Origin: Desulfovibrio mangrovi
GTDB taxonomy: Bacteria > Desulfobacterota > Desulfovibrionia > Desulfovibrionales > Desulfovibrionaceae
Assembly: GCF_026230175.1 (NCBI RefSeq)
Contig: NZ_CP104208.1
Location: 2,170,001-2,234,000 of the forward strand
Reading direction: 5' to 3'
DNA length: 64,000 nucleotides
Shown here: positions 12,796 through 62,434 of the stretch, one piece after another
Position numbering within the stretch: position 1 is the first letter of the stretch
Layout of the letters: every line of letters starts with the position of its first letter
The notes under the pieces: generated by a model
Database searches by the model: none
The model's input: only the letters and a program-made list of their open reading frames with translations
Told to the model about the DNA's origin: nothing
Made by a program: the position numbers and the translations under genes

Positions 12796-13848
12796 TTACG
12801 GGAGTTCCGTGCCTGAAGTGAGGGCATATCCCTTGAGGAGTCCGAAGCATCCGGCCAGCATCATGTCCCCGCCGGGAGCGATGAACTGGCCCTGTCCACG
12901 CAGAATCTCGCGACGCGGTCCGAGAATGTACGCAGGGCGGAATCCTTCCGCCTCATCGGGCAGGGGCAGGTTCATGCAGCCGTGGCCGCCCGTGCTGCGC
13001 ACCATTTCGTCGGTAAGCCAGCCACGACGGAACTCCACAAGGTCGTCGATGAGCTTTTCCTGCGGCAGCATGCCCGTGTGATGCTCGTACACGCCCAGCA
13101 CACGTTCCTTGTAGACAAGGAAGGCCACCAGATGACTGTTGCCCACGTTAACCACCAGCACGCCTTCCCTGTGGCTGCGGGCGGCGATCTCCGGCATGAA
13201 CAGCGCGCCGAGCAACGCAGCGGCAGCGGAATCCGCCACGGGGCCGAAACCGGTGGCACGCTGGATGGCGGCAAGGCGGGTCATGGGAGCGGGGGCCGTT
13301 GCATACAGCAGCGCGGCAAGATCGCCGTCATGCTCGGTCAGCAGATCGCGCCAGAGCTGGAAACGCCCCACGCGATTGCCGAAGCCGTCCGGTTCGGGAT
13401 GGAAACCGTGGTCCTGCGCGGCCGCGATGACCAGATCAGGATAGGCAAGCCCGGCCATGCCGAGAAAGGCCCGCCACCATGCCGGATCATAGTCTGCCAG
13501 CGCCACGGGCGCATAACCTGCGGGGCAGCGTTCCTCTATGTCTATGCCCCAACTGCGCACCTTGTCCGCATTATCGTGCAGGGCAAAGGCCGCATCGGGA
13601 TGCACGGCCACTTTCAGACCGGCTTCCATGTGCCGCTTCAGGGCACCGAAAAAACCGCCGCCCATATTGCTGCCGTGCAGATACACGGAAACGCCGTCAC
13701 GGGTGTGCGCTTCCACCTGCTGCGCCACCATGCGGGCAGGGGCGGGCAACACGAACTTGGGGCAGTTTTCAAGTTCCCTGCCGGGAATGTAGTAGAGAAC
13801 GTCCTGCGTTCCGCTGCCAATATCGAGCAACAGCATGGTACGGGGCAT
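12796..13848 (-). CDS. DUF1786 ASKHA-like protein
   Basis: This is a 350-residue protein matching DUF1786. It starts with an actin/sugar-kinase type phosphate loop (LLLDIGSGTQDVL) and has a second nucleotide-fold motif (VLVVNVGNSHLVAFLVY) at about 215-235. Several Gly-rich turns (LHGSNMGGGFFG, GNRVGRF) recur in the family. The fold suggests ATP binding, but no reaction is known. It stands alone with its own ribosome site (AGGAAAG). A tRNA gene lies divergently upstream. Confidence 0.75.
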   Translation of the reverse strand: MPRTMLLLDIGSGTQDVLYYIPGRELENCPKFVLPAPARMVAQQVEAHTRDGVSVYLHGSNMGGGFFGALKRHMEAGLKVAVHPDAAFALHDNADKVRSWGIDIEERCPAGYAPVALADYDPAWWRAFLGMAGLAYPDLVIAAAQDHGFHPEPDGFGNRVGRFQLWRDLLTEHDGDLAALLYATAPAPMTRLAAIQRATGFGPVADSAAAALLGALFMPEIAARSHREGVLVVNVGNSHLVAFLVYKERVLGVYEHHTGMLPQEKLIDDLVEFRRGWLTDEMVRSTGGHGCMNLPLPDEAEGFRPAYILGPRREILRGQGQFIAPGGDMMLAGCFGLLKGYALTSGTELP

Positions 13849-47136: not shown

Positions 47137-47155
47137 TGGCGGAAGGGGTGAAATT
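47137..47155. other. tRNA-Ser 3'-end remnant (oldest att-like copy)
   Basis: TGGCGGAAGGGGTGAAATT matches the tRNA-Ser 3' end (TGGCGGAAGGGGTGAGATT) with one difference, in the same orientation as the copies at 49376 and 62343. After this the match stops. I read it as the outer attachment-site scar of an older insertion. Confidence 0.55.
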
Positions 47156-49039: not shown

Positions 49040-49340
49040 TGACACCCAAAGAAAACAATGATGGCATTACCCATCATCTTCCAGAACTGCAAACACATCC
49101 CTGCACAGCCCCAGATGTAAGCACGAACGGACTCCAGAACAGACAGGACTTCACACCGATCTCGAAGCCCACAACCTGCCCCTGGGCAACCTATAGATGG
49201 TACACCCTCCAGGCAGACAGAACTCGATCATGGGCCAGCTGAACACTGAAACAGGTATGGGAGAGCTAAAAATGACAAGGCTTGCACCTCACATTGCGTA
49301 CCACCCAGATGTTCCAAGGCGGTCCAATTGACGTACAAGC
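49040..49340 (-). pseudogene. decayed start of a second tRNA-Ser integrase gene
   Basis: The minus strand carries a frameshifted relative of the first codons of the integrase at 60507-62273. The frame LFQACTSIGPPWNIWVVRNVRCKP here pairs with LFQACTAAGLPWDTLVVHNARCKP there. Further on, in shifted frames, LPYLFQ and CLPGGCTIYRLPRGRL resemble YLLQ and IRLPEDVVPYFGRKE. A stop follows CKPCHF. The nucleotide match, including the 100 bases between gene and tRNA end, is roughly four bases in five by eye. The left limit is vague. Confidence 0.55.
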
Positions 49341-49370
49341 CTGAAAAAGATTGCCATTAAAGGCAGTTAT

Positions 49371-49400
49371 GAGCGATGGCGGAAGGGGTGAGATTCGAAC
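49371..49400. other. left attachment site (tRNA-Ser 3' end, direct repeat)
   Basis: Thirty bases, GAGCGATGGCGGAAGGGGTG then AGATTCGAAC, are identical to 62337-62366, where the second half is the 3' end of the intact tRNA-Ser. They bound the intact element of about 13 kb. Confidence 0.8.
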
Positions 49401-49631
49401 ATCACCCTTGTACCACACTCGAAAATACCATGGAATCTCAGCCCTGTACGAAATTAAGGGGATGGGTTCCAGTCGATGTGTTCCACACGCTTGTACCATA
49501 CCTTCTGGGCAATTTGGAAGCCTGTTTAACGCACCTCGTCCCCCAGCTAACAACCCCCTGATACTGCTTTATTTGTTTGCCTGTATGCTGTAGGTTCCTT
49601 AAGGCTTCGTTCAACCAGCCGAGGAGTGACT

Positions 49632-52600
49632 ATGCACGAGGCAGCCGAGACCATAACGTCCCCGAATTTCTGGTTCCTTGCTGAACACGACGAACTGCTC
49701 CTGAAGTGCGCCGCACAAGCAGAGCGCCTTGTATTCAGTGATGCTAACGCCGCACTCTTCAAAATCCGGCTCTTCAGCGAGTTGCTCGCCCAGCAAATTG
49801 CCGCCCGTTCCGGCATAGCCATTTACGAGGAAGACACCGCCGTAAAGGTACTTCGCAAGCTGGATGACGAAGGCGTACTCAGCCCAAAGATAAACCAGAT
49901 TTTCCACATCCTCAGAAAAGCTGGCAACATCGCCGTTCATGGCCTCGAAGGCGAAGAACAGAATGCGTTGGATGCCCTTCGTTTTTCCAGGATTCTTGCA
50001 ACTTGGTTCCATAAGGTTTTCGGGAAGGATAAGGAGTTTGAACCTGGCCCCTTCCTTCCTCCCCCAAAGCCGACTCAGGCTGATGCTGCTCTTGCAGCCG
50101 AACTGGAACGACTCAAGCAGAAGCTTGCCGAAACGGAAGAGGCACAACAGGCCGCCCTCAAAAAGGCGGAAGTAGCATACCTGCACCTCGCTGAGAAAGA
50201 GTCTCTGCTTCAGGAAAGCAAGCAACAGCAGGACGAAGCAAAGCGCTCGTTTGCCCTTCGCGTTGAAGAACTTCGCATTCAGGCAACCAAAAAATCCAAG
50301 ACCGAGATCGACAGCACAAAGCAAGCCCTGAATCAGGTTGGCGAAGCCTCTGTTGACCTAGACGAAGCAGACACCCGGAAGATCATCGATGCACAACTCC
50401 GTGATGCCGGATGGGAAGCAGACTCTACCCACCTCACATACCAGGCCGGAGTTCGCCCGCAAAAGGGAAAAAACCTCGCCATTGCCGAATGGCCTACCAA
50501 GTCTGGCCCAGCGGACTACGTGCTTTTTGTCGGCCTTACACCTGTAGCCACTGTCGAAGCCAAACGCCGGAACAAAGATGTTTCGTCAGCCCTGAAACAG
50601 GCACAACGCTACAGCAAAGACTACACCGTGCGAGGAGAAGAAACCCTCCCGGAAGGCAGCGCCTGGGACGGGCATGTCCTTCCCTTCCTGTTTTCCGCCA
50701 ATGGCCGCCCATTCCTCAAACAGCTCCGCACCAAGAGCGGCATATGGTTCAGAGATGCTAGGGTTACAACCAACATCTCTCGTCCTCTTGTAGGCTGGCC
50801 TACGCCGGAAGGCCTCATGGAACTATTGGGGCAGGACATTCCCGCTGCGGATGCAAGCCTGGAAACGAATTCCTCAGACTATCTGGATCTTCGCTATTAC
50901 CAGCACGATGCCATCCGGGCAGTCGAAGCTGCCATTGCCGAAGGGCAACGGAACATACTCACGGCCATGGCAACAGGCACAGGGAAAACCCGAACCTGTA
51001 TCGGCCTGGTGTACCGATTCTGCAAAGCGAAGAGATTCCGCCGTGTGCTCTTTCTGGTCGACAGAACATCACTGGGCGAACAGACCGCAGACGCATTCAA
51101 GGACTTCCGGCTTGAGAGCCACCAGACCTTCAACGAAATATACGACGTGAAGGAAATCGGAGACGTAAAGCCGGACAAGGATACGAGACTCCAAATTGCC
51201 ACCATCCAGGGGATGGTCAAGCGTCTGCTCTTCCCTGCGGACGGTGACACTCCCTTGCCCGTTGACCAGTATGACTGCATCATCGTGGACGAATGCCATC
51301 GGGGCTACAATCTCGACAAGGATATGAGCGATACGGAACTCACCTTCCGCAGTGAAAGCGACTACATTTCCAAATACAGCCGCGTCCTCGACCATTTCGA
51401 TGCTGTCCGTATCGGCCTCACGGCCACACCAGCGCTGCACACGACCGACCTCTTCGGCAAGCCTGTATACACGTACTCCTACCGCCAGGCTGTCATTGAC
51501 GGCTACCTTGTGGATCATGAACCGCCCATTCGCATCGTTACCGAACTGGCGGAGGATGGCATCACATGGAAGGCCGGGCAGGACATTGACATTTTCGACG
51601 CACACAGCGGCGAAGTGGATACATGGAACCTGGCGGATGAAGTCTCCGTTGAAATTGACGAGTTCAACAAACGCGTCATCACAGAACCGTTCAACAAAGT
51701 TGTCTGCGGCCAGCTTGCAAAGCACCTAGACCCGACACTGGATGGAAAGACCCTCATCTTCTGCGCTACGGACAGCCATGCCGACATGGTTGTTGACCTG
51801 CTTAAGCAGGCCTTTGCATCCGAGTATGGCGAGGTGGAAGATGATGCTGTGATCAAGATAACGGGCAATTCGGATAAGCCGTTGCAGCTCATCCGCTGCT
51901 TTAAAAATGAACGACTTCCGAATGTCGTCGTCACGGTTGACCTCTTGACCACAGGCATAGACGTACCGGAAATTTGCAACCTTGTTTTCCTGCGGAGAGT
52001 CAGAAGCCGCATTCTGTATGAGCAGATGCTGGGCAGAGCAACACGCCTGTGCGACGACATCGGCAAGGAGTGGTTCCGCATCTTCGACGCCGTAGACCTA
52101 TACTCTGCTTTGCAGGACTACACCGAGATGAAACCTGTTGTGCAGACTGTATCCGTCACCTTCCAGCAGCTTATTTCCGAATTGGAAGGAACCACGGATG
52201 ATAACGTGCGGCAAACCATCGTCAACCAGTTCCGCGCCAAGTTCCAGCGCAAGAAGCGCCTGATTAAGGATGATGCCCTTGAGAAGTTCCAGACGCTCAC
52301 AGGGCATGCACCGCAGGCCTTTGCTGACCAACTTGGGGGCAAGGATATTTCCAGCACCACAGCCATGCTTCTCGGCCCTCAAGGCCTTGGTGCGTTCCTG
52401 GATGGTATCCGATCCGACATGAGAGGCAAGCAACTCATCTCCCATCATGAGGATAAACTCCGGCGTGAGGAACGCGGCTACGGTACGGCTAACAAACCGG
52501 AAGACTACCTGGAATCCTTCCGGCAATTCATTCTGAACAATCAAAACGATATTGCCGCCCTCAAGGTTGTTCTGCAACGCCCAGGCGAACTCACCCGCCA

Positions 52601-53000
52601 GCAACTGAAGGAGCTTAAGCAACTCCTTGACGAGCACCAGTATTCTGAGGTCAAACTGCGCACCGCGTGGCGCGAGTCTAAGAATCAGGACATCGCTGCT
52701 TCCATCATAGGATTCATCCGCCAGTTAGCCCTTGGCTCACCGCTCATGTCATATGAAGAACGTGTGGACAGGGCTATGAAGCGCATCCTTTCAAGCCGCC
52801 AGTGGACAGCCCCACAACGACAATGGCTGAACCGAATTGGTGAGCAGATGCGCAAAGAGATCATCGTGGATCGCGAAGCCCTCAACAGCGGACAATTCCA
52901 GGCCAACGGTGGCTTCCCAAGATTAAACAAGGTGTTTGATGGCAGAATGGAAGAAGTTTTAAACGAGATCAATAAAGCCCTATGGGCTGAAGCTGGATAG
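49632..53000 (+). CDS. hsdR: type I restriction endonuclease subunit HsdR
   Basis: This is a 1122-residue motor and nuclease subunit. An N-terminal DUF4145-like helical domain (ending KAGNIAVHG) is followed by a coiled segment and the nuclease domain at about 245-320, with the PD-(D/E)xK residues in GPADYVLF and VATVEAKR. The helicase has Walker A ATGTGKT (about 445), DECH (about 552), and the motif VTVDLLTTGIDVPEICNLVF with a Q-x-x-GRATR end. DNA is translocated with ATP and cut far from the site. ATG 49632 with GAGGAG upstream is chosen over GTG 49626. It is the first gene of the operon. Confidence 0.95.
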   Translation: MHEAAETITSPNFWFLAEHDELLLKCAAQAERLVFSDANAALFKIRLFSELLAQQIAARSGIAIYEEDTAVKVLRKLDDEGVLSPKINQIFHILRKAGNIAVHGLEGEEQNALDALRFSRILATWFHKVFGKDKEFEPGPFLPPPKPTQADAALAAELERLKQKLAETEEAQQAALKKAEVAYLHLAEKESLLQESKQQQDEAKRSFALRVEELRIQATKKSKTEIDSTKQALNQVGEASVDLDEADTRKIIDAQLRDAGWEADSTHLTYQAGVRPQKGKNLAIAEWPTKSGPADYVLFVGLTPVATVEAKRRNKDVSSALKQAQRYSKDYTVRGEETLPEGSAWDGHVLPFLFSANGRPFLKQLRTKSGIWFRDARVTTNISRPLVGWPTPEGLMELLGQDIPAADASLETNSSDYLDLRYYQHDAIRAVEAAIAEGQRNILTAMATGTGKTRTCIGLVYRFCKAKRFRRVLFLVDRTSLGEQTADAFKDFRLESHQTFNEIYDVKEIGDVKPDKDTRLQIATIQGMVKRLLFPADGDTPLPVDQYDCIIVDECHRGYNLDKDMSDTELTFRSESDYISKYSRVLDHFDAVRIGLTATPALHTTDLFGKPVYTYSYRQAVIDGYLVDHEPPIRIVTELAEDGITWKAGQDIDIFDAHSGEVDTWNLADEVSVEIDEFNKRVITEPFNKVVCGQLAKHLDPTLDGKTLIFCATDSHADMVVDLLKQAFASEYGEVEDDAVIKITGNSDKPLQLIRCFKNERLPNVVVTVDLLTTGIDVPEICNLVFLRRVRSRILYEQMLGRATRLCDDIGKEWFRIFDAVDLYSALQDYTEMKPVVQTVSVTFQQLISELEGTTDDNVRQTIVNQFRAKFQRKKRLIKDDALEKFQTLTGHAPQAFADQLGGKDISSTTAMLLGPQGLGAFLDGIRSDMRGKQLISHHEDKLRREERGYGTANKPEDYLESFRQFILNNQNDIAALKVVLQRPGELTRQQLKELKQLLDEHQYSEVKLRTAWRESKNQDIAASIIGFIRQLALGSPLMSYEERVDRAMKRILSSRQWTAPQRQWLNRIGEQMRKEIIVDREALNSGQFQANGGFPRLNKVFDGRMEEVLNEINKALWAEAG

Positions 53001-53003
53001 TGC

Positions 53004-53360
53004 ATGATGTGTAAGAAGTCACTTAATAGAATTCTATGCACTGTTGTGATAGGCATTATACCAATATTTGCATATTTATCCTTTCTTCACTACTTCGGAA
53101 CCTCCATCGAGAACAAACTTATTAATGAGTGTGCCCTCATATATATTGGAGTAGTGACAGGACTATGCTGCAACTTTTTATTCTACATATTCACTCAAGA
53201 GTTTGCAATAAAGATACACAAATCTAATAACATGATGCATATAGAATTCGGCAAAGACTTTTCTTGCGTGCACAAAGCAAGAATAATGATACACTACAAG
53301 AACGATAACGGCTCAGCAGAGTGCTTTGACTACATCGTTCGAGACAATACAAAATCGTAA
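53004..53360 (+). CDS. small membrane protein inserted between hsdR and hsdM
   Basis: This is a 118-residue protein with two hydrophobic helices (ILCTVVIGIIPIFAYLSFL and ALIYIGVVTGLCCNFLFYIF), then a cytoplasmic part of about 45 residues ending with YIVRDNTKS. It begins three bases after the hsdR stop and ends seven bases before hsdM. Its codons are visibly AT-richer than the neighbouring hsd genes, suggesting a separate origin. Two-helix proteins with a short soluble part occur as effectors or toxins in defence loci, but no family is recognised here. Confidence 0.6.
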   Translation: MMCKKSLNRILCTVVIGIIPIFAYLSFLHYFGTSIENKLINECALIYIGVVTGLCCNFLFYIFTQEFAIKIHKSNNMMHIEFGKDFSCVHKARIMIHYKNDNGSAECFDYIVRDNTKS

Positions 53361-53367
53361 TCATATC

Positions 53368-54804
53368 ATGAACACTACAACCGACATAGTCCAGCAACTC
53401 TGGAAGCTCTGCAACACCCTTTGGGGTGACGGCGTTACTTACCATCAGTACGTAAACGAACTGACCTACCTCCTCTTCCTCAAAATGGCGGAGGAGACTC
53501 AGACTGAACACCAAATTCCAGAAGAATACCGCTGGAAGAAGCTCGTCAAACAGGACGGGGTTGAGCAACTTGTCTTTTACAAGAAGATGCTCATTGACCT
53601 TGGCACCAGTGGTTCAAAGCTTGTGCAGGATATTTTCGCCAACGCAACCAGCTTCATCCAGCAGCCGAAGAATCTGCGTAGGCTTGTGGACGCCATCGAC
53701 AAGCTTGATTGGTACAGTGCAAGAGAAGAAGGCCTTGGCGACCTGTATGAAGGCCTTCTGGAAAAGAACGCCACGGAATCGAAGCGCGGAGCTGGTCAGT
53801 ACTTCACACCTCGACGACTGATTGAATCCATGGTGGACCTGATGCAGCCGAAGCCCGGCGAAATCATCCAAGACCCGGCAGTAGGTACGGGAGGCTTCCT
53901 GATCAATGCTGACAGGTACATCAAGGAACGCACGGACGACCTCTTCACCCTGAAAGAGCGTGAGCAGAACTTCCAACGCCGCGAAGCCTTCCAGGGCATC
54001 GAGCTGGTGCAGGACGTGCATCGCCTCTGCCTGATGAACCTCATGCTGCATGGCTTGGAAACGCCTGTTTTCCCTGGCGACACGCTCGGCCCGCAGGGCG
54101 CATCCATGGCAAAAGCAGACCTTATCCTCACCAACCCGCCCTTCGGCACTGCAACAGGCGGAGGCCATACCCGCCGGGATGACTTCACTTACCCCACCAA
54201 CAACCGCCAGCTTGCCTTTTTGCAGCACATCTACCGAGGCCTGAAGCCCGGTGGTCGTGCGGCAGTGGTGCTGCCCGACAACGTATTGTTTGAAGACAAC
54301 ACAGGCCGCAGCATCCGCATCGACCTGATGGAGAAGTGCAACCTGCACACGATCCTCCGCTTGCCCACAGGCATTTTCTACGCCCAGGGGGTGAAGACCA
54401 ACGTGCTCTTCTTCCAGCGAGGAGAAACCGACAAGGGCAACACCAAGGCAACATGGTTCTACGATCTGCGAACCAACATGCCCAGCTTCGGCAAGCGCAC
54501 CCCGCTTACCCGCGCCCACTTTGCCGAGTTTGAAGCCTGCTACGGTGGTGACCCTAACGGCAACGCCAAGCGTGTTGACCAAGGCGAAGAAGGGCGTTTC
54601 CGCTGCTTCACTCGCGAAGATCTTGCCAAGCGCAATGACAATCTGGACATCACCTGGCTGCGCGATGAAAACGCCGACCACGCCGACGACCTGCCTGAAC
54701 CGGAAATATTGGCTGCCGAGATCATGGATCAGCTTGGGATTGCCATGCAGGAAATGGTAGAGTTGAAGGCTATGCTGGAGAATTGCGGGGAATTGAATGA
54801 CTAA
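53368..54804 (+). CDS. hsdM: type I DNA methyltransferase subunit HsdM
   Basis: This is a 478-residue N6-adenine methyltransferase. The N-terminal helical domain (QQLWKLCNTLWGDGVTYHQYVNELTYLLFLKMAEE) is standard. The SAM site includes GQYFTPRRLI and DPAVGTGGFLI (about 143-175), and the catalytic motif is NPPF (about 255). I chose ATG 53368 since homology starts there; a longer frame from 53326 overlaps the small membrane-protein gene. The stop overlaps hsdS by eight bases. Confidence 0.95.
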   Translation: MNTTTDIVQQLWKLCNTLWGDGVTYHQYVNELTYLLFLKMAEETQTEHQIPEEYRWKKLVKQDGVEQLVFYKKMLIDLGTSGSKLVQDIFANATSFIQQPKNLRRLVDAIDKLDWYSAREEGLGDLYEGLLEKNATESKRGAGQYFTPRRLIESMVDLMQPKPGEIIQDPAVGTGGFLINADRYIKERTDDLFTLKEREQNFQRREAFQGIELVQDVHRLCLMNLMLHGLETPVFPGDTLGPQGASMAKADLILTNPPFGTATGGGHTRRDDFTYPTNNRQLAFLQHIYRGLKPGGRAAVVLPDNVLFEDNTGRSIRIDLMEKCNLHTILRLPTGIFYAQGVKTNVLFFQRGETDKGNTKATWFYDLRTNMPSFGKRTPLTRAHFAEFEACYGGDPNGNAKRVDQGEEGRFRCFTREDLAKRNDNLDITWLRDENADHADDLPEPEILAAEIMDQLGIAMQEMVELKAMLENCGELND

Positions 54805-56278
54805 ACAAGCTGACAAAGGCACCTGGAGTTGCAACCAGCTACCTCCCACATGGGTATGGGCAAGCTTTAACGCGTTATTTAGTGATACAACTTCTTCTCA
54901 CAAAAAGTTAAAGCAAAAGGACTACGACGAAGACGGCAGCCTACCAGTTATTGACCAAGGGGCGTCCCTGATTGGGGGAACCACCCACAGATCGGAACTT
55001 CAATACGATGAAGAACTGCCTGTAATAATATTTGGTGACCACACCCGCTGCGTAAAATTCGTTGATTTTAACTTCGCCCAGGGAGCTGACGGGGTCAAGG
55101 TACTTAGACTATTTCAAAAGCTTTATTCTAAATTTTTCTACCATGCATTAAAAACAGTCACCTTGCCAGACAAGGGCTACAGCAGACACTTTAAATTTTT
55201 AAGGGCCACAGAATTCCCCCTCCCGCCCCTCAACGAGCAACGGCGCATTGCGGACAAAATCGACGCACTGCAAGCCAAAAGCCGTCGCGCTCGAGAGGCT
55301 CTGGAAACCGTAAAGCCGCTGCTGGAAAAGTTCCGGCAGTCTGTGCTTGCGGCTGCCTTTCGTGGTGATCTGACTGCTGAGTGGCGCAAGCAGAACCCAA
55401 ATGTGGAGCCTGCTTCCAAACTCCTTGAGCGCATTCGTGCTGAACGCCGCGCCCGCTGGGAAGAAGCCGAACTTGCCAAGATGCAGGCCAAGGGCGTGAA
55501 GCCCAAGAACGACAAGTGGAAGGAGAAGTACGAGGAGCCTGCGCCTGTTGACACAGAAGGTTTGCCGGAACTGCCTGAGGGGTGGTGTTGGGCAAGCACA
55601 TCAGAATCTTGCGCTATTGTTGTTGATTGTCATAACAAGACAGCCCCTTATAAGGAAGATGGAATCCCTTTGATCCGCACTACAAATGTGCGAAACGGAA
55701 AAATCAACTTGTCAGCAACAATGTTCGTTGATGAACCAACTTACCAGTATTGGTCACGGCGATGCATTCCCCTGCCAGGGGACATCATTTTCACTCGCGA
55801 AGCCCCTATGTGTGAAGTCGGTATGATTCCAGAAGAAGTAATGTTGTGTATGGGGCAGCGAATGATGCTATTGCGAGCTGATGATAACAACTTACGCAAG
55901 AACTTCCTCCTTTATGCACTCCAGGCTCCACATATCATTGAGTTTGCTCAACGAGTTGGAGTCGGAATGGGCGTAAAGCACCTCAGAGTAAGGGATGTTG
56001 AAAATTTACCAATCCCGCTCGCCCCAATTGCAGAACAGAAGCAACTCGAAATCATCCTCACCCGTACAATTGAACTGCATGAAAAACTCCTAGAGATAGT
56101 CGAAGGAACGTCTTCTCCACTTAACGACCTAGACCAGTCTATCCTCGCCAAGGCCTTCCGAGGCGAACTCGTTCCACAAGATCCGAATGATGAACCTGCA
56201 TCCGTTCTGCTGGAGCGCATAAAAGCGGAACGGGAAGCCGCCCCCGGAAAGAAGAAACGAGGCCGAAGAGCCAGCTAG
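54797..56278 (+). CDS. hsdS: type I specificity subunit HsdS
   Basis: This is a 493-residue subunit with two target-recognition domains (about 15-150 and 270-415), each followed by a conserved helical spacer: PLNEQRRIADKIDALQ to LAAAFRGDLT, and PIAEQKQLEIILTRTIEL to LAKAFRGELV. The two halves recognise the two parts of a split DNA site. TRD1 is AT-richer than the spacers, as expected for exchangeable recognition domains. There is no nearby second hsdS or inverted repeat, so no shuffling system is visible. Confidence 0.93.
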   Translation: MTKQADKGTWSCNQLPPTWVWASFNALFSDTTSSHKKLKQKDYDEDGSLPVIDQGASLIGGTTHRSELQYDEELPVIIFGDHTRCVKFVDFNFAQGADGVKVLRLFQKLYSKFFYHALKTVTLPDKGYSRHFKFLRATEFPLPPLNEQRRIADKIDALQAKSRRAREALETVKPLLEKFRQSVLAAAFRGDLTAEWRKQNPNVEPASKLLERIRAERRARWEEAELAKMQAKGVKPKNDKWKEKYEEPAPVDTEGLPELPEGWCWASTSESCAIVVDCHNKTAPYKEDGIPLIRTTNVRNGKINLSATMFVDEPTYQYWSRRCIPLPGDIIFTREAPMCEVGMIPEEVMLCMGQRMMLLRADDNNLRKNFLLYALQAPHIIEFAQRVGVGMGVKHLRVRDVENLPIPLAPIAEQKQLEIILTRTIELHEKLLEIVEGTSSPLNDLDQSILAKAFRGELVPQDPNDEPASVLLERIKAEREAAPGKKKRGRRAS

Positions 56279-56347: not shown

Positions 56348-57199
56348 TTAGGCAGCTTTTCGCCCGAACTCAGACTTTACAGAGGGCAACCTTATCTCGC
56401 AATTGAACGCATCATACAGCGCAGCCAGCCCCGCCGGGGTGATGCGGCCCTGAGGTTCCACCAAGCCTCTCGCCAACCGCCGCTTTATCACCTTCATATA
56501 CCCATTCCTTACAGCGTAGACTCTGGGGCGGACATATCGGTCTTTCGCGTAAAGCCAGCCAAAACGGCGAAGTGCATTGCTCAACTCGAATACAGACAAA
56601 CCTAACGCCAGCGCGGCATCTGTCAGAGTAAAGGTGCCTTTGGCGTCAAGAAAGCTGTCGTACTTCTCTGCCTTTGGGGCAAGCTCTGCCAACCTGGCTT
56701 CGACAGCTTCAACCTGGATCTTCAACCGCTCTGCTTCCCGCGCCTTCTGCGCTGCCAATTCAAGAGCCTTGGCGAGGCTATCCGGTGTGACAACCGCAGA
56801 CCGAACAGCTGGATTGCTCCGCAGTCCCTGGCGGAACCATGCGTCCAGCGCAAGAAAGCACTCCGTGCGGTACAGGTTCAACTTTGCCTGCTTGCCTGCG
56901 GACACTTTCTTGATGGTGAAAAGCCAAGCGCTGGCATACTCGATGGGGAGCATGACGGTCTTCTGGCTGCCACCCGTGGAAGGGATGTCGATTATCGACA
57001 CACCTTCTAACAGCACTGGGTCAGCCATAATTTTCACACGCTGACTTGCCCACGCGATCCCAAGCGCATCGCACACATGGCGGGGCGAGAAGTACGCCTT
57101 GCCTTCTTCGGTTACGGCAGCCAGTACGGTGGAGCCAGCAATGGTCACTTCTTCGTGACGGACAGGGACGATAGCGGAAATTTCATGTACGTTTTTCAT
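56348..57199 (-). CDS. phage antirepressor-type protein (P22_AR_N + ANT/KilAC)
   Basis: This is a 283-residue protein. The N-terminal domain (about 15-120) has AYFSPRHVCDALGIAWASQRVKI and VMLPIEYASAWLFTI, like the P22 antirepressor N-domain. A coiled segment (about 140-170) links to an ANT/KilAC DNA-binding domain (DSFLDAKGTFTLTDAALAL to ITPAGLAALYDAF). Such proteins counter repressors in prophages and mobile islands. AAGGAG precedes ATG 57199. It is the last gene of a minus-strand set of small accessory genes. Confidence 0.85.
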   Translation of the reverse strand: MKNVHEISAIVPVRHEEVTIAGSTVLAAVTEEGKAYFSPRHVCDALGIAWASQRVKIMADPVLLEGVSIIDIPSTGGSQKTVMLPIEYASAWLFTIKKVSAGKQAKLNLYRTECFLALDAWFRQGLRSNPAVRSAVVTPDSLAKALELAAQKAREAERLKIQVEAVEARLAELAPKAEKYDSFLDAKGTFTLTDAALALGLSVFELSNALRRFGWLYAKDRYVRPRVYAVRNGYMKVIKRRLARGLVEPQGRITPAGLAALYDAFNCEIRLPSVKSEFGRKAA

Positions 57200-57343
57200 T
57201 GTATTTTTCTCCTTAATGAAAACAGGCAGGCCAACCCTATGACCCGCCTGCTTCCGTTTGTTTTGTTCTTGTATTTGTTGTTGATGGTGAAAAATGCGCC
57301 CGAAGGCGAACGCCATAGCCACAAAGCCGGACAATGTTTTGAA

Positions 57344-57574
57344 TCACTTCTTCTTTGCTCTTCCTCCATGGAGACGCAGTGCAATGGCCTCCCTTTCTTC
57401 CTGGGACAAATCCCGCTTCTTCCTGAAAGGACTCTTGCCGAACCGATACGGGTACAGCGAACATTCAGGCATGCAGCAAAGGCTTACTTCCTTAAGGCTC
57501 CAGCCAGAACAGTCGATGCACTTCTCACGGATCGCCTTGAGTGGCGTGGTGTGGTTTTGAACCTGATTTTCCAT
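57344..57574 (-). CDS. small Cys-rich protein of unknown function
   Basis: This is a 76-residue protein with CIDC and CCMPEC clusters that could hold one zinc ion, followed by a basic tail (FRKKRDLSQEEREAIALRLHGGRAKKK). Proteins like this are common among phages and islands, without known function. The ribosome site AAAGGAG is good. It lies upstream of the antirepressor gene on the same strand. Confidence 0.7.
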   Translation of the reverse strand: MENQVQNHTTPLKAIREKCIDCSGWSLKEVSLCCMPECSLYPYRFGKSPFRKKRDLSQEEREAIALRLHGGRAKKK

Positions 57575-57676: not shown

Positions 57677-58411
57677 TTAATGCACTGTGCCGGATAACGC
57701 CGTCATTGTGCGGCATGAATCTGCCTGTTCTTCTGCGCACTCAGCTACATCAGCGTCTGTCACTCCGAGTTCCTCTTTCACACTGTCTGCGTTGAAATAG
57801 AAATTGCCATCTGCATCGTGATGAGATGGTGTCAGGCCAGGAAAACACTCAAGTGCCTTCTCAAACATCCTGTCTTTCACCTCTCTCGGCGCCAACGCAA
57901 GGAACGCCTCCAGCGCCCGTGAAAAGAGAGGGCGATCAGACCAGCCAGCTTCATGGAGACACATGACTATTGCCGCCGCCTCCTTCTCCGATTTGAATAA
58001 CAAGGTGCCATTAAGTCGGCATTTTTCAGCAACAACCACGGACTCCCAATCGGCGAGGGTGGCTTTTATTTCATCCAAATCCGCAGTAGCCATGTTGACA
58101 CGCTCGACTTCACTAGCGTTCAACATTCGGTTTGGACGTCCCTTACGCAGCTCTTTTGCAAGCTCCTTTATAGCCTCATCCTGATCAGGTTCAGCAACTT
58201 CATCCATAATCAGCCCATACCTAGAGCTGGCAAGCTGAAGCTCTTCAACAGAACAGCCGATAATCTCTGCGGCTTGCTCAGCGAACGATTCAAGAACCTC
58301 TTCGTAGCCATCATAAACAAAATTGTACTCCTTGAAATAAAGGTCCAAATCCGTTTCGAACATGTGTTCAGCATACTCACGATTCATTTCCATTTCCTCG
58401 ACATTTTTCAT
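57677..58411 (-). CDS. strongly acidic protein of unknown function
   Basis: This is a 244-residue soluble protein. By my count about 53 residues are Asp or Glu and about 24 are Lys or Arg, so it is highly negative. It is mostly helical, with motifs AAEIIGCSVEELQLASS and EAFLALAPREVKDRMFEKALECFPG. No family is recognised. AAGGAG precedes ATG 58411, and the leader and first codons (ATGAAAAA) resemble those of the antirepressor gene. In an island that carries restriction genes an acidic protein raises the idea of a DNA mimic, which is only an inference. Confidence 0.7.
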   Translation of the reverse strand: MKNVEEMEMNREYAEHMFETDLDLYFKEYNFVYDGYEEVLESFAEQAAEIIGCSVEELQLASSRYGLIMDEVAEPDQDEAIKELAKELRKGRPNRMLNASEVERVNMATADLDEIKATLADWESVVVAEKCRLNGTLLFKSEKEAAAIVMCLHEAGWSDRPLFSRALEAFLALAPREVKDRMFEKALECFPGLTPSHHDADGNFYFNADSVKEELGVTDADVAECAEEQADSCRTMTALSGTVH

Positions 58412-58566
58412 TGTTTTCTCCTTGTGTTTGTTGATTTCATTGAACAGATACATGCAGAATATTCTGCGTCCTTTGCCAATAGGGTATCGCTCTGAACGCC
58501 GTCAGCATCTGTCAGCATTGCCATGTTGACTCACCAGCAATACAAAACGACACCATAGAAAAATGA

Positions 58567-58731: not shown

Positions 58732-59286
58732 TCAGTCTTCCTTGATGACTCTGTACAGCGTCTGCCTGCTGATCCCGTATTCCATGGCAAGCTGCTTCTT
58801 CTCTTCTCCGGCCATCGCCCGCGCCTTGAGTTCCCGTACCTGCTCCGCATCCAGCTTGGCTGATCTGCCGCAGTGCTTGCCCTTGGCCTTTGCCTTGGCG
58901 ATGCCCTCACGCTGACGCTCTTTGATGATCTCGCGTTCAAACTGCGCCACTGCACCAATGATCTGTAGTTGCAGAGTCTGCATGGGATTGTTCTGTTCGC
59001 CTGTGAACGAAAGTCCTTCTTTATGGAAGCGAACCGAGACACCCCGCGAAGTCATATCCTGAAGGAGGCCGAGCAGGTCGGAAAGGTTCCGCGCAAGACG
59101 ATCTATGCTGTGAACGTGGAGCGTATCTCCTTTGCGAAGATACCTGAGACACTCCTTCAACTTCGGGCGCTTGGTTGTCGCTGCGCTCACCTTCTCTTCA
59201 AAAACCTCATCAAGCCGGATGCTATCAAGCTGGCGGTCTGTATTCTGATCCACACTGCTTACGCGAACATACCCTATATCAGCCAT
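58732..59286 (-). CDS. serine recombinase (resolvase/invertase type)
   Basis: This is a 184-residue small serine recombinase. The nucleophile is S10 in GYVRVSS, followed by the Arg-rich motif HVHSIDRLARNLSDL and the long helix GAVAQFEREIIKERQREGIAKAKAKGK. The C-terminal helix-turn-helix is EKKQLAMEYGISRQTLYRVI. It is likely to resolve multimers or invert DNA. ATG 59286 with AAGGAGG upstream is chosen. Repeat sequences just before the gene may be its binding sites. Confidence 0.9.
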   Translation of the reverse strand: MADIGYVRVSSVDQNTDRQLDSIRLDEVFEEKVSAATTKRPKLKECLRYLRKGDTLHVHSIDRLARNLSDLLGLLQDMTSRGVSVRFHKEGLSFTGEQNNPMQTLQLQIIGAVAQFEREIIKERQREGIAKAKAKGKHCGRSAKLDAEQVRELKARAMAGEEKKQLAMEYGISRQTLYRVIKED

Positions 59287-59309
59287 CTGGTGTCCTCCTT
59301 GGTTCATGC

Positions 59310-59388
59310 GATGTCACACAAAACATCTAGACCTTATGAGAATGTGTGTCAACTTTTCTGATCACAAGGTTTTGTTACACGAAACATC
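59310..59388. promoter_or_regulatory. candidate resolvase binding sites/operator
   Basis: TGTCACACAAAACATC (59312-59327) and TGTTACACGAAACATC (59373-59388) are 14/16 identical direct repeats 61 bases apart, directly upstream of the resolvase gene. The first also has a GATGT/ACATC dyad. This fits a multi-subsite res region that also represses the gene. Confidence 0.4.
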
Positions 59389-59449
59389 AGGGCTTGCCAG
59401 GCAGCTTGAAGACGTATTGAAAGGTGTACCTTCTGAGACACCGCCAACG

Positions 59450-59865: not shown

Positions 59866-59891
59866 TATACCTTTAGTGTCGGCTAATTATT
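59866..59891 (+). repeat. long-spaced repeat, copy 1
   Basis: TATACCTTTAGTGTCGG followed by CTAATTATT. The inner part TTAG-TGTCGG-CTAA has short inverted arms. Next copy starts 150 bases on. Confidence 0.9.
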
Positions 59892-60015
59892 TTCACATAT
59901 GAATTCAGCCAATTACATGAGTAGAGAACACTCACGTAAAACCACATCCCCCAGCTTGAAAGACATACACACGACATCGGCCTACTTTTGCAAATCGACT
60001 CGGCAAGGCGTTTGT

Positions 60016-60041
60016 TATACCTTTAGTGTCGGTTAATTATT
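60016..60041 (+). repeat. long-spaced repeat, copy 2
   Basis: TATACCTTTAGTGTCGG followed by TTAATTATT (one change from copy 1). Downstream bases GTAAAATCGACAAG are shared in part with copies 3 and 4. Next copy starts 137 bases on. Confidence 0.9.
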
Positions 60042-60152
60042 CGTCTGTAAAATCGACAAGTTGGAGACATGCTTCATCCTACTTCAAGACTGCCACCGCT
60101 AGGTCGTCTTGTTTGGGAGCAAACCCGCCCAACCGCACCGACCTTGCGCTTC

Positions 60153-60178
60153 TATACCTTTAGTGTCGGCTAATTATT
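60153..60178 (+). repeat. long-spaced repeat, copy 3
   Basis: Identical to copy 1 over 26 bases. An outer TTGCG / CGCAA pair flanks it. Next copy starts 130 bases on. Confidence 0.9.
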
Positions 60179-60282
60179 CTCACGCAAAATCAGAAGGTTG
60201 TGGATGACTCACTGATCCATCCCTCGCACGCGCAGGTCGATCACGCACACCTGTAACCAAGAATTCCAGCCCTGTGCGTTAC

Positions 60283-60308
60283 TATACCTTTAGTGGCGGT
60301 TAATTATT
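60283..60308 (+). repeat. long-spaced repeat, copy 4
   Basis: TATACCTTTAGTGGCGG followed by TTAATTATT (two changes from copy 1). Next copy starts 154 bases on. Confidence 0.9.
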
Positions 60309-60436
60309 TTCCTGCAATATCAAGACATTATAGCGATCACCAGAATCCAGCCCCAAAAGGCGCAGGAAGGAGTCCTCATATCCAGCAAGTCCAAAGGACG
60401 ACTTCCTACGCCCCCTCAGTTCTCCAAGCGCGTCCT

Positions 60437-60460
60437 TATACCTTTAGTGTCGGCTAATTA
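60437..60460 (+). repeat. long-spaced repeat, copy 5 (truncated end)
   Basis: TATACCTTTAGTGTCGG followed by CTAATTA, then CCC: the last two T and the semi-conserved bases after them are missing. It lies 47 bases from the integrase stop codon. Confidence 0.88.
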
Positions 60461-60506: not shown

Positions 60507-62273
60507 CTACTCAAACTTCCTTACCCACTCATGCGACTTCAAGAAGTCCAGCCCAAGCTTCGTATGGAAGTCCACAGGCTCAATCACGTCTTTCATGAGC
60601 ATGGAAACAGGATAGCGCCCTTCATATATGGATGTAACGTCGCTCAGATCAGCTTCATGCCCGACAACTTCCTTGAGCTTCATACGGTCAATGTCGTGCA
60701 GCTTAGCCCATGTAATGAATGTGTGCCGGAATGAATGGAAGGTAACATCGCTCACATCAGCTGACCCAGCTCCGACGCCACAACCTCGACGGTAACGGGT
60801 AAACCACTGCGTTACGTTGGCGGAGACATTCACATGCCTCTGGCTGAGAGTAGCGCGAGAAAACAAATGCTCCTCGCCCATTTCGCGCCTGACTTTTACC
60901 CGGTCAAGGAATCCCAGTTCGACGAGGAATGGATGGATTGGAACACGCCGCTTACCAGCCTCTGTCTTAACGTCCTTGTCGCCTTCGGCATTTATGTCGA
61001 TATACGGTACTCCATCCTCTTCACGGATGTCATCAAGATGGAGCTGACATATCTCCTCCAACCTCGCCCCGGTGAAAAGTCCTAAAATTGGTGCCCAGAA
61101 CTGCCAAGCGGTTGTTAGCCCCTTCCTGCCCTTCGCTGTTCCGTAGAATTGAGGAGTGTGAAAGAGTGCCTTCAGCTCTTCGTCTGTAAATCCTCGGCGG
61201 ACGGCAGCCTTTGCCTTCATATTCAATTTCTTGAGTGACAAGGCCGCATTGAGCTTCTTGGCCGACACCACATACCCTTCCAGCTCAGCCCAGTTGATAA
61301 ACGACCGAACATTATCCACACGGGATTTCAAGCTCTTCGTCTTTAAAAGATGACGTGGATCAATCTGCATCTCCAGCAGCTCCTTTGTCGTCTTTCCCTC
61401 GTAATACGACTTGTAGCGAGCTGAAGGCAGCTTATTGAGCAACGCATAATACTGGCGCATATGATCGTTTGTTAACGCATCCATCCGCATTTCTTCGCCA
61501 ACCAACTCGGCAAAACGACGCAACTGTGGAGCCATATCTCTGGCGCTGGTGGCCTTCCATTCGTCATTGTCCATTTTAATTGCAATGTATTTTTCAACGG
61601 CCTCTGCAACCGAAGGGCAAACGGTGGCAGAGAGCTGCTCAGGAACGGAAGTCGTTGAATTTAGAATAGGAGCTTGCTGAGACTTCAAAGGATTGAAGTG
61701 CGGAGAACTGGCCTTTCTGTGAAATGAGGCAACAGCGTGGAGGAGAGAGGCACACAACCTATTATAGTCGGTTGACCCAGCATCGACAGGCAAGCCATGC
61801 TCTTTGATCAACCCATCGGCAATCACTTTTACTGAGCGATAGTTGGATGTCTCAATATCGGCCAACGCCTCATGGAAAAAAGCATCATGCTGCGCGAGGT
61901 GCTCTTTCAAAGCATCTTTGTTCCATGGAGTCTTTCGATCAACACGCATCAGGTATTCATCCGAAAGAGCCTCCTGAAGCCATTTGTGTACCACCTCTTG
62001 CAATTTGGATTCAGAAATCCTACCCGACATAGACGTTCTTAACCTCCTGATTTCATCTATGATTTCGACAAAGGTTGCGGCAAGACGTATCGCTTTTGGA
62101 CGCGCCTGTCGCAAGTACTGTGTACCAAGCGACTTTCGCACCTCTTTTCGCCCAAAGTACGGGACGACATCTTCGGGCAAACGAATCCTGAAATATAGAC
62201 CACTTGGACGCTGAAGCAAGTAGGAGGGAGCAGAAAATGACACAGGCTTGCACCTCGCATTGTGTACCACCAA
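60507..62273 (-). CDS. int: tyrosine recombinase/integrase of the tRNA-Ser island
   Basis: This is a protein of about 588 residues. The N-terminal part (SAPSYLLQRPSGLYFRIRLP...GRKEVRKSLG) is the DUF6538-like domain of long integrases. A core-binding domain is at about 215-330 and the catalytic domain at about 350-570, with Arg in FTGARLEEIC (about 403), HSFRHTF (about 513) and the Tyr in VTSIYEG (about 549). The start is unclear: TTG 62273 or GTG 62270, and the frame stays open back to the tRNA end. It inserts DNA at the 3' end of the adjacent tRNA-Ser. Confidence 0.92.
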   Translation of the reverse strand: MVVHNARCKPVSFSAPSYLLQRPSGLYFRIRLPEDVVPYFGRKEVRKSLGTQYLRQARPKAIRLAATFVEIIDEIRRLRTSMSGRISESKLQEVVHKWLQEALSDEYLMRVDRKTPWNKDALKEHLAQHDAFFHEALADIETSNYRSVKVIADGLIKEHGLPVDAGSTDYNRLCASLLHAVASFHRKASSPHFNPLKSQQAPILNSTTSVPEQLSATVCPSVAEAVEKYIAIKMDNDEWKATSARDMAPQLRRFAELVGEEMRMDALTNDHMRQYYALLNKLPSARYKSYYEGKTTKELLEMQIDPRHLLKTKSLKSRVDNVRSFINWAELEGYVVSAKKLNAALSLKKLNMKAKAAVRRGFTDEELKALFHTPQFYGTAKGRKGLTTAWQFWAPILGLFTGARLEEICQLHLDDIREEDGVPYIDINAEGDKDVKTEAGKRRVPIHPFLVELGFLDRVKVRREMGEEHLFSRATLSQRHVNVSANVTQWFTRYRRGCGVGAGSADVSDVTFHSFRHTFITWAKLHDIDRMKLKEVVGHEADLSDVTSIYEGRYPVSMLMKDVIEPVDFHTKLGLDFLKSHEWVRKFE

Positions 62274-62309
62274 GGTGTCCCAAGGTAGTCCAGCTGCCGT
62301 ACAAGCCTG
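62243..62309. promoter_or_regulatory. inverted repeat beside attachment site
   Basis: CAGGCTTG (62243-62250) and CAAGCCTG (62302-62309) are perfect complements. The decayed copy keeps seven of these pairs at the same spacing (49278-49284 and 49336-49342). Likely an integrase or accessory-protein site that overlaps the start of int. Confidence 0.5.
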
Positions 62310-62336
62310 AAAAAGATTGCCATTTAAGGCATTTAA

Positions 62337-62366
62337 GAGCGATGGCGGAAGGGGTGAGATTCGAAC
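62337..62366. other. right attachment site (direct repeat with 49371)
   Basis: Thirty bases identical to 49371-49400. Bases from 62343 rightwards are the 3' end of tRNA-Ser, so insertion keeps the tRNA whole. Confidence 0.8.
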
Positions 62367-62434
62367 TCACGGACGTCGTAAAACGTCGGCAGTTTTCAAG
62401 ACTGCTGCAATAAACCGGGCTCTGCCACCCTTCC
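62343..62434 (-). tRNA. tRNA-Ser (anticodon UGA)
   Basis: 92 bases with encoded CCA on the minus strand. Acceptor GGAAGGG / CCCTTCC, D-arm GCAGAGCCCGGTTTATTGC, anticodon arm GCAGT-CTTGAAA-ACTGC (TGA), a long variable arm (CGACGTTTTACGACGTC), T-arm GTTCGAATC. It is the integration target of the island to its left. Confidence 0.95.

Follow-up and report, generated by a model that had tools for sequence, protein, structure and literature searches.

A 13.0-kb island inserted at a tRNA-Ser gene of Desulfovibrio mangrovi carries an array of five tandem repeats, for which sequence comparison makes a strong case that they are T7-type promoters. We consider it probable that this array is read by the RNA polymerase of an incoming T7-like phage and that such reading activates the island. 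The window referred to below is the whole stretch of DNA analysed, 64 kb in length.

The sequence-only reading had reported five copies of a 26-bp repeat starting at 59866, 60016, 60153, 60283 and 60437, in steps of 150, 137, 130 and 154 bases, and our analysis recovered exactly this layout. The 26-mers share a mean identity of 93% (minimum 85%), and dinucleotide shuffling of the window, done 100 times, never produced a match to the repeat with up to three mismatches allowed. Spacers between repeats are 124, 111, 104 and 128 bases long. They had been described as unrelated, which holds for four of six pairs (z 0.1 to 1.8 against base shuffles); by the same measure, spacers 2 and 3 (z 3.7) and spacers 3 and 4 (z 3.2) are weakly alike, probably due to the repeat-adjacent stretches that the earlier reading had itself pointed out. 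The first four copies in window order follow, on the minus strand, the pattern AATAATTA[GA]CCG[AC]CACTAAAGGTATA. The copy at 60437, with terminal ACC where the other copies have ATT, departs from them solely in its first three bases on this strand. Inverted TTAG-N6-CTAA arms are present as had been noted, but what is conserved among the copies is a 23-mer with a direction and not a palindromic core; this remained hidden because the other strand had been read.

Within its own genome the repeat is confined to a single locus. The search for it elsewhere that had been suggested was run on the family's 288 genomes and, with up to three mismatches tolerated, yielded one genome and a single copy of the island. 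Two plus-strand ORFs of at least 50 aa (54 aa and 95 aa) overlap the array region and the longest open stretch within it has 67 codons, and we saw no evidence that any of these is a gene. The array region gave no match in an Rfam search at gathering cut-offs, nor did a distant blastn search of plasmids and phages match the array. A CRISPR array was rejected given spacers of 104-128 bases and the lack of a cas match among nine island proteins, which agrees with the initial judgement that the repeats are neither iterons nor CRISPR. Iterons and integron-type cassettes were likewise rejected, as were, from reading of the sequence, sigma-70 promoters.

On the minus strand, each copy contains a 23-bp T7-type promoter, AATTA[GA]CCG[AC]CACTAAAGGTATA. 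In order of transcription, copy 1 lies at 60437..60459 (AATTAGCCGACACTAAAGGTATA; matrix score 17.1) with its transcription start predicted at the complement of 60442, copy 2 at 60283..60305 (AATTAACCGCCACTAAAGGTATA; 17.2), copy 3 at 60153..60175 (AATTAGCCGACACTAAAGGTATA; 17.1), copy 4 at 60016..60038 (AATTAACCGACACTAAAGGTATA; 17.6) and copy 5 at 59866..59888 (AATTAGCCGACACTAAAGGTATA; 17.1). The main matrix was built from annotated T7, T3, K11 and gh-1 promoters (those of the T7 record include TAATACGACTCACTAAAGGAGGT) and from promoters, found de novo, of T7-like prophages in two genomes of the same family (G229 and G097); no window or island site entered it. The five copies occupy ranks 1-5 of the window, both strands considered, with scores of 17.1-17.6 against 14.1 for the next site; the copies being nearly identical, this ranking represents one test, not five. 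In first-order random sequence, 6 of 12,799,978 positions score as high as the window copies. Left-out scores were 17.9 for T7, 17.5 for T3, 18.6 for K11, 12.0 for G229, 7.0 for G097 and -2.9 for gh-1; the matrix is thus best suited to promoters of enterobacterial type and fails to detect some others. A second matrix (T7, G229, G097 and five IMG/VR phages) agrees with the main one; five of its eight sets were found via CACTA or AATTA and are therefore not independent, so that the main matrix was made without them.

The array shares with T7, T3 and K11 promoters a directional 23-bp unit with AATTA-like upstream block, variable box, CACTA core and start at GG. It differs from the situation in T7-group phages in that five promoters stand in tandem in a bacterial island without polymerase gene, and in that their box, CCGA/CCGC, is matched by no phage that we found. 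The same layout of motifs constitutes promoters in T7-like phages. An early suggestion of a protein-binding or transcription-unit array, made as a possibility, was right.

The Pfam family PF00940 (phage-type RNA polymerase) has no match in the D. mangrovi genome, in a run in which the control genomes also remained without match; across the 288 family genomes it matched in six. K-mer counting without a given motif, combined with reading of the context, revealed AATTAAGACGCACTAGTAAGCAG and near copies at five sites of the G229 polymerase locus and AATTAGGTTGCACTAAGTGGAAG and near copies at four sites of the G097 locus. In a third genome, G055, AATTAGGTTGCACC lies directly behind the polymerase gene. 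Three promoters spaced by 42-43 bases are also seen near the polymerase gene of the G097 prophage (L060:950-1057). When 80 T7-like polymerase loci from viral_contigs were subjected to a CACTA-anchored test, groups of at least three sites appeared in eight, and five of these (L140, L141, L166, L174 and L183) possess an AATTA-like block; no such family emerged from the remaining loci, hence the AATTA/CACTA promoter type is not general (5/80). The repeated promoter core of phages L140 and L141, whose polymerase matches that of G229 at 51%, is AATTAGGTTGCACTA. Exactly three of the 288 genomes contain it, namely in the G097 T7-like prophage and in the G029 and G234 islands, so that in two related islands the 15 core bases are identical to those of T7-like phage promoters.

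A phage with the CCGA box of the array was not found in viral_contigs: 61 stretches hold AATTARCCGACACTA, each once per fetched stretch, in a scan confined to the CCGA box, as distinct from the CCGC box of copy 60283. An exact 17-mer scan of viral_contigs hit one coding sequence in two contigs, with a single match in each that was taken as chance, and an 18-mer scan hit one sequence in three contigs, again with a single match each. A pair scan with ACACTAAAGG returned eight stretches, in none of which the AATTA block was in register. Residues of the polymerase specificity loop are too unlike those of T7 for prediction of the recognition box. On one strand of a T7-like phage contig (L152), TCCAATACTGTTCACTA occurs six times and may represent a different type of promoter.

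The island itself is bounded by a 69-base direct repeat, 66 of 69 positions being identical between the copies at the far end (49332..49400) and at the tRNA end (62298..62366). The latter overlaps the 3' part of the integration target, a tRNA-Ser (TGA) gene (62343..62434, minus strand). Another 15 bases identical to the tRNA-Ser end occur 2 kb beyond the island (47137-47151), perhaps as trace of an older attachment. A tyrosine integrase with DUF6538 N-terminal domain (60507..62273, minus strand; Pfam) lies between the tRNA gene and the array. Downstream of the array, four genes share its strand. The first recognised one encodes a serine recombinase of resolvase/invertase type (58732..59307; Pfam, PHROGs, NCBIfam), followed by genes for an orphan 258-aa protein (ORF258; 57677..58453), a 76-aa cysteine-motif protein (57344..57574) with relatives in the G224, G155 and G021 islands, and a phage antirepressor with P22_AR_N and KilAC/ANT domains (56348..57334; Pfam, PHROGs). 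On the plus strand, the island encodes type I restriction HsdR (49626..53000), methyltransferase HsdM (53326..54804) and specificity subunit HsdS (54797..56278). ORF258 has no family match and is found in 4 of 288 genomes including its own; it is acidic by eye, and its relatives (about 33-34% over 87-100 aa) are confined to three related islands. Its fold prediction (mean pLDDT 46) was not used. A res-like region with inverted TGTC/GACA motifs is conserved upstream of serine recombinase genes (window 59300-59440; L071 6040-6340). Among the nine island proteins scanned, no virion protein was named and no hijacking, packaging or replication gene was recognised. A T7-like prophage was rejected as the identity of this element, on account of the missing PF00940 match in the genome and of the lack of virion genes among these nine proteins.

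Of the 288 genomes, 166 contain relatives of the serine recombinase. The 14 that ranked best apart from the own genome (16 pieces, 299 kb) yielded nine sites scoring at least 14.5, in 8 of 16 pieces, where random sequence would give about two. The sites in L120, L121 (inside the gene for the recombinase) and L124 appear to be chance hits; after their removal, six sites remain in five of the 14 genomes: G234, G029, G155, G195 (two sites, 36 bases apart) and G224. Counted by locus, sites of at least 14.5 were found within about 1.5 kb of 6/29 recombinase relatives and 6/29 integrase relatives, the G234 site being common to both, and the fetched flanks of the other 23 loci in each set contained none. 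A scan of genome_contigs for two AATTARNNNNCACTA copies 130-160 bases apart gave 10 stretches. Nine of them, together with four of five viral_contigs stretches, were set aside as AT-rich, palindromic or unexplained repeats; L071 and L066 were kept, the latter called T7-like from its promoters only. In one of the ten, PHAR01000010.1 (G155), AATTAGCGGACACTATTAGATGA and AATTAGGGGACACTATTAGATGA are found 150 bases apart behind a recombinase approximately 66% identical to that of the window. Repeats of other kinds were also encountered. In an Okeania contig (L076:1275-1803), a repeat that contains AATTAANTNTCACTA and has long conserved flanks occurs five times at distances of 116-138, and minisatellites of interleaved CTAATT/AATTAG palindromes (L080:3486-3678, L068 and L070) mimic the promoter pattern.

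Three other genomes (G208, G233 and G249) contain relatives of ORF258, along with integrases 44-45% identical to that of the window. Their islands were fetched for ORF258, and sites were counted from a score of 13. The G233 array (L290) comprises six sites, at 13573, 13528, 13458, 13334, 13260 and 12449. The G208 element has five sites inside and a sixth (L293:12082) outside; the G249 element has four, and a fifth (L289:6872) just past the att repeat. One of the G208 sites is identical to a G229 prophage promoter in 22 of 23 positions. Three sites were found in G216, which was fetched for a match to the pattern AATTARSYKRCACTA and for its integrase. Pieces fetched for hits or for integrase similarity bear two or three sites each (G020, G021, G022, G117) or two (G147); G218, whose integrase is among the closest, has no site in its 7.4-kb contig.

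Sites point along the recognised genes that follow in all ten elements compared (window, G029, G234, G195, G155, G216, G249, G233, G208 and G224), mechanical opposite-strand ORFs being ignored and G020-G022 and G117 left out. These genes encode antirepressors or Rha-type regulators, an AAA_25 ATPase, recombinase, gp14-like protein and others. The AAA_25 ATPase, which resembles phage primase-helicases, is situated downstream of promoters in G249, G216, G233, G208 and G155. The integrase adjoins tRNA-Ser in G249, G233, G208, G216, G029, G195 and G224, and tmRNA in G155 and G234. Island sizes derived from short repeats are 20.2 kb (G249), 20.1 kb (G208), 21.0 kb (G216), 19.3 kb (G029), 15.1 kb (G195) and 14.7 kb (G224); such bounding repeats were not found for G233, G234 and G155. 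Among its cargo, the G029 island carries type I restriction and PtuA-like genes, and that of G021 a type II system. Proteins resembling the internal virion protein gp14 of T7 are encoded at L113:11094-11531, L118:13675-14250 and L297:5374-5982, and no other virion gene was seen among the proteins scanned in the islands bearing them.

Recognition boxes differ within single islands (G233, G208, G249, G216, G195) by a mean of 2.1-3.7 of five positions, as opposed to 0-0.95 within eight phages, in a comparison that uses few sites per island and may include a chance site; the window array is nearly uniform (1.0). In the G249, G216 and G233 islands, ATPases are 98.6-98.9% and recombinases 97.3-99.1% identical, other shared genes reaching 87-95%. 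G249 and G233 bear the same genus label and G216 another; the elements have thus moved between genera in recent times. Homology of G233 (L290) to the otherwise closely similar islands of G249 (L289) and G216 (L294) upstream of the ATPase gene breaks at promoter L290:12449. Promoters therefore seem to serve as recombination joints for exchange.

As control, 20 stretches of 20 kb (400 kb) were taken from the same genomes at hand-chosen round coordinates. They contain 0, 2 and 4 sites scoring at least 16, 14.5 and 13, respectively (reversed matrix: 0, 1 and 7). Islands and window taken together (31 pieces, 573 kb) contain 26, 39 and 53 (reversed matrix: 4, 10 and 22), five of the 26 being the window's own. 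The higher number of reversed-matrix hits in islands (22 versus 7 at the lowest threshold) means that part of the low-score excess is due to composition, and shows that AT-rich island DNA raises chance hits. Because some pieces had been chosen for their hits, the fair figures are those of the 299-kb recombinase set and of the G208, G233 and G249 pieces selected through ORF258. Across the 288 genomes, AATTARSYKRCACTA was matched 12 times, and 5 times when the pattern was read backwards. Of the 12 matches, four belong to the window and that in G216 to another island; those in L130, L131 and L134 appear to be chance matches, and that in L135 (G275) could be of either kind.

The observed sequence match, tandem layout and strand, the island borders, the absence of a polymerase match from the genome and similar arrangements in related islands point to the following scheme. 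The array would serve a T7-like phage's single-subunit RNA polymerase as five promoters in tandem, all facing the genes for recombinase, ORF258, 76-aa protein and antirepressor. Lacking a polymerase, the island would wait for infection by a T7-like phage. An incoming polymerase of matching specificity would then transcribe the island genes at high level and thereby switch the element on, in a satellite-like activation from which the island would presumably gain.

The same polymerase might instead, or in addition, prime island DNA at these promoters for the phage replisome, a role as replication origin that is compatible with activation and that we regard as rather unlikely. The T3 record annotates the primary origin directly behind promoter phi1.05 and the window island has no recognised replication gene, but with the AAA_25 ATPase encoded downstream of promoters in five relatives, origin use may not be needed in those islands. 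Descent of the promoters, as a relic, from a T7-like prophage after its recombination with the island is unlikely, too. Such a descent would account for T7_gp14-like proteins in related islands, for a G249 island antirepressor that shares 37% identity with an antirepressor of the G229 T7-like prophage, and for a G216 gene 93% identical over 144 aa to a gene of that prophage. It fits poorly with a genome free of polymerase matches and an island free of virion genes among nine proteins scanned, with five near-identical copies separated by mostly unlike spacers, with mixed boxes within single islands, which phages do not display, and with ATPase and recombinase near-identical between islands of two genera. 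A decoy or trap, in which the array would protect the cell by diverting or misdirecting phage polymerase or by yielding harmful transcripts, appears quite unlikely. Multiple promoter copies and defence genes in three examined islands (window, G029, G021) would suit it, yet a few chromosomal copies could hardly titrate phage polymerase, and the sites run towards recognised island genes in every element compared.

Very unlikely is a set of tandem small RNAs, each 104-128-base unit being transcribed by phage polymerase. Each unit does have one promoter, and good folding was seen for the unit that follows copy 60437 (z -2.06, or -2.19 over 120 bases) and for the initial 50-80 bases after copy 59866 (z -1.9 and -2.0), but the remaining units fold no better than shuffles, spacers are mostly unlike and a terminator for every unit would have to be assumed. 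That the repeats are recombination sites for the neighbouring recombinases is highly improbable, although the array sits between both recombinase genes and shows short TTAG/CTAA arms. The serine recombinase appears to own the conserved res-like region upstream of its gene, and the motif layout is tied to promoters of T7-like phages rather than to a recombinase, so that a recombination-site array was rejected. From the sequence-only reading, a conserved spaced array on a mobile island stands, while cassettes of the tyrosine recombinase are not supported: a k-mer test of 29 further integrase loci, taken with flanks of about 1.5 kb, found no such array. In one of them (L035), a 12-base GC-rich repeat occurs three times.

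Reading of the array by an incoming phage polymerase, our preferred explanation, brings the island close to phage satellites. Two characters of such elements were found here, an integrase with att repeats at a conserved target and the lack of a full virion gene set among the nine proteins scanned; recognised hijacking, packaging or replication genes did not turn up among these, the AAA_25 ATPase being confined to relatives. Like P4, PICI, PLE and PICMI, these islands combine an integrase, an att site in a conserved gene and a size of 13-21 kb, and three that were examined carry defence cargo as phage satellites do. A satellite usually reaches some one third of the size of its helper, according to one account (PMC10803314); the T7 genome has 39.9 kb. 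Unlike in P4, PICI, PLE and PICMI, no known satellite marker gene was recognised in the window island, and activation is proposed to proceed through the helper's own RNA polymerase, mobilisation being putative. Temperate T7-like phages, e.g. LUZ100, are described as combining T7-type promoters with integrase and regulators (PMC10134795). Such phages encode the polymerase, unlike the compared promoter islands, whose genomes gave no polymerase match except G229, where the prophage is on another contig. In searches of open full texts, judged by titles and abstract starts, we found no satellite described with T7-type promoter arrays or using a T7-like polymerase.

We tentatively propose, as a possibility somewhat short of even, that a family of tRNA-Ser islands of this type in these deltaproteobacteria are satellites of T7-like phages which sense their helpers via tandem arrays of the helpers' own promoters, that mixed arrays widen the range of helpers, and that promoters act as joints for exchange of modules with phages. 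The idea of activation is testable with reporters in E. coli. If it is true, a dormant island would recognise a T7-like phage by borrowing the promoter read only by the phage's polymerase, and the mixed specificities of an array would record which phages the island meets.
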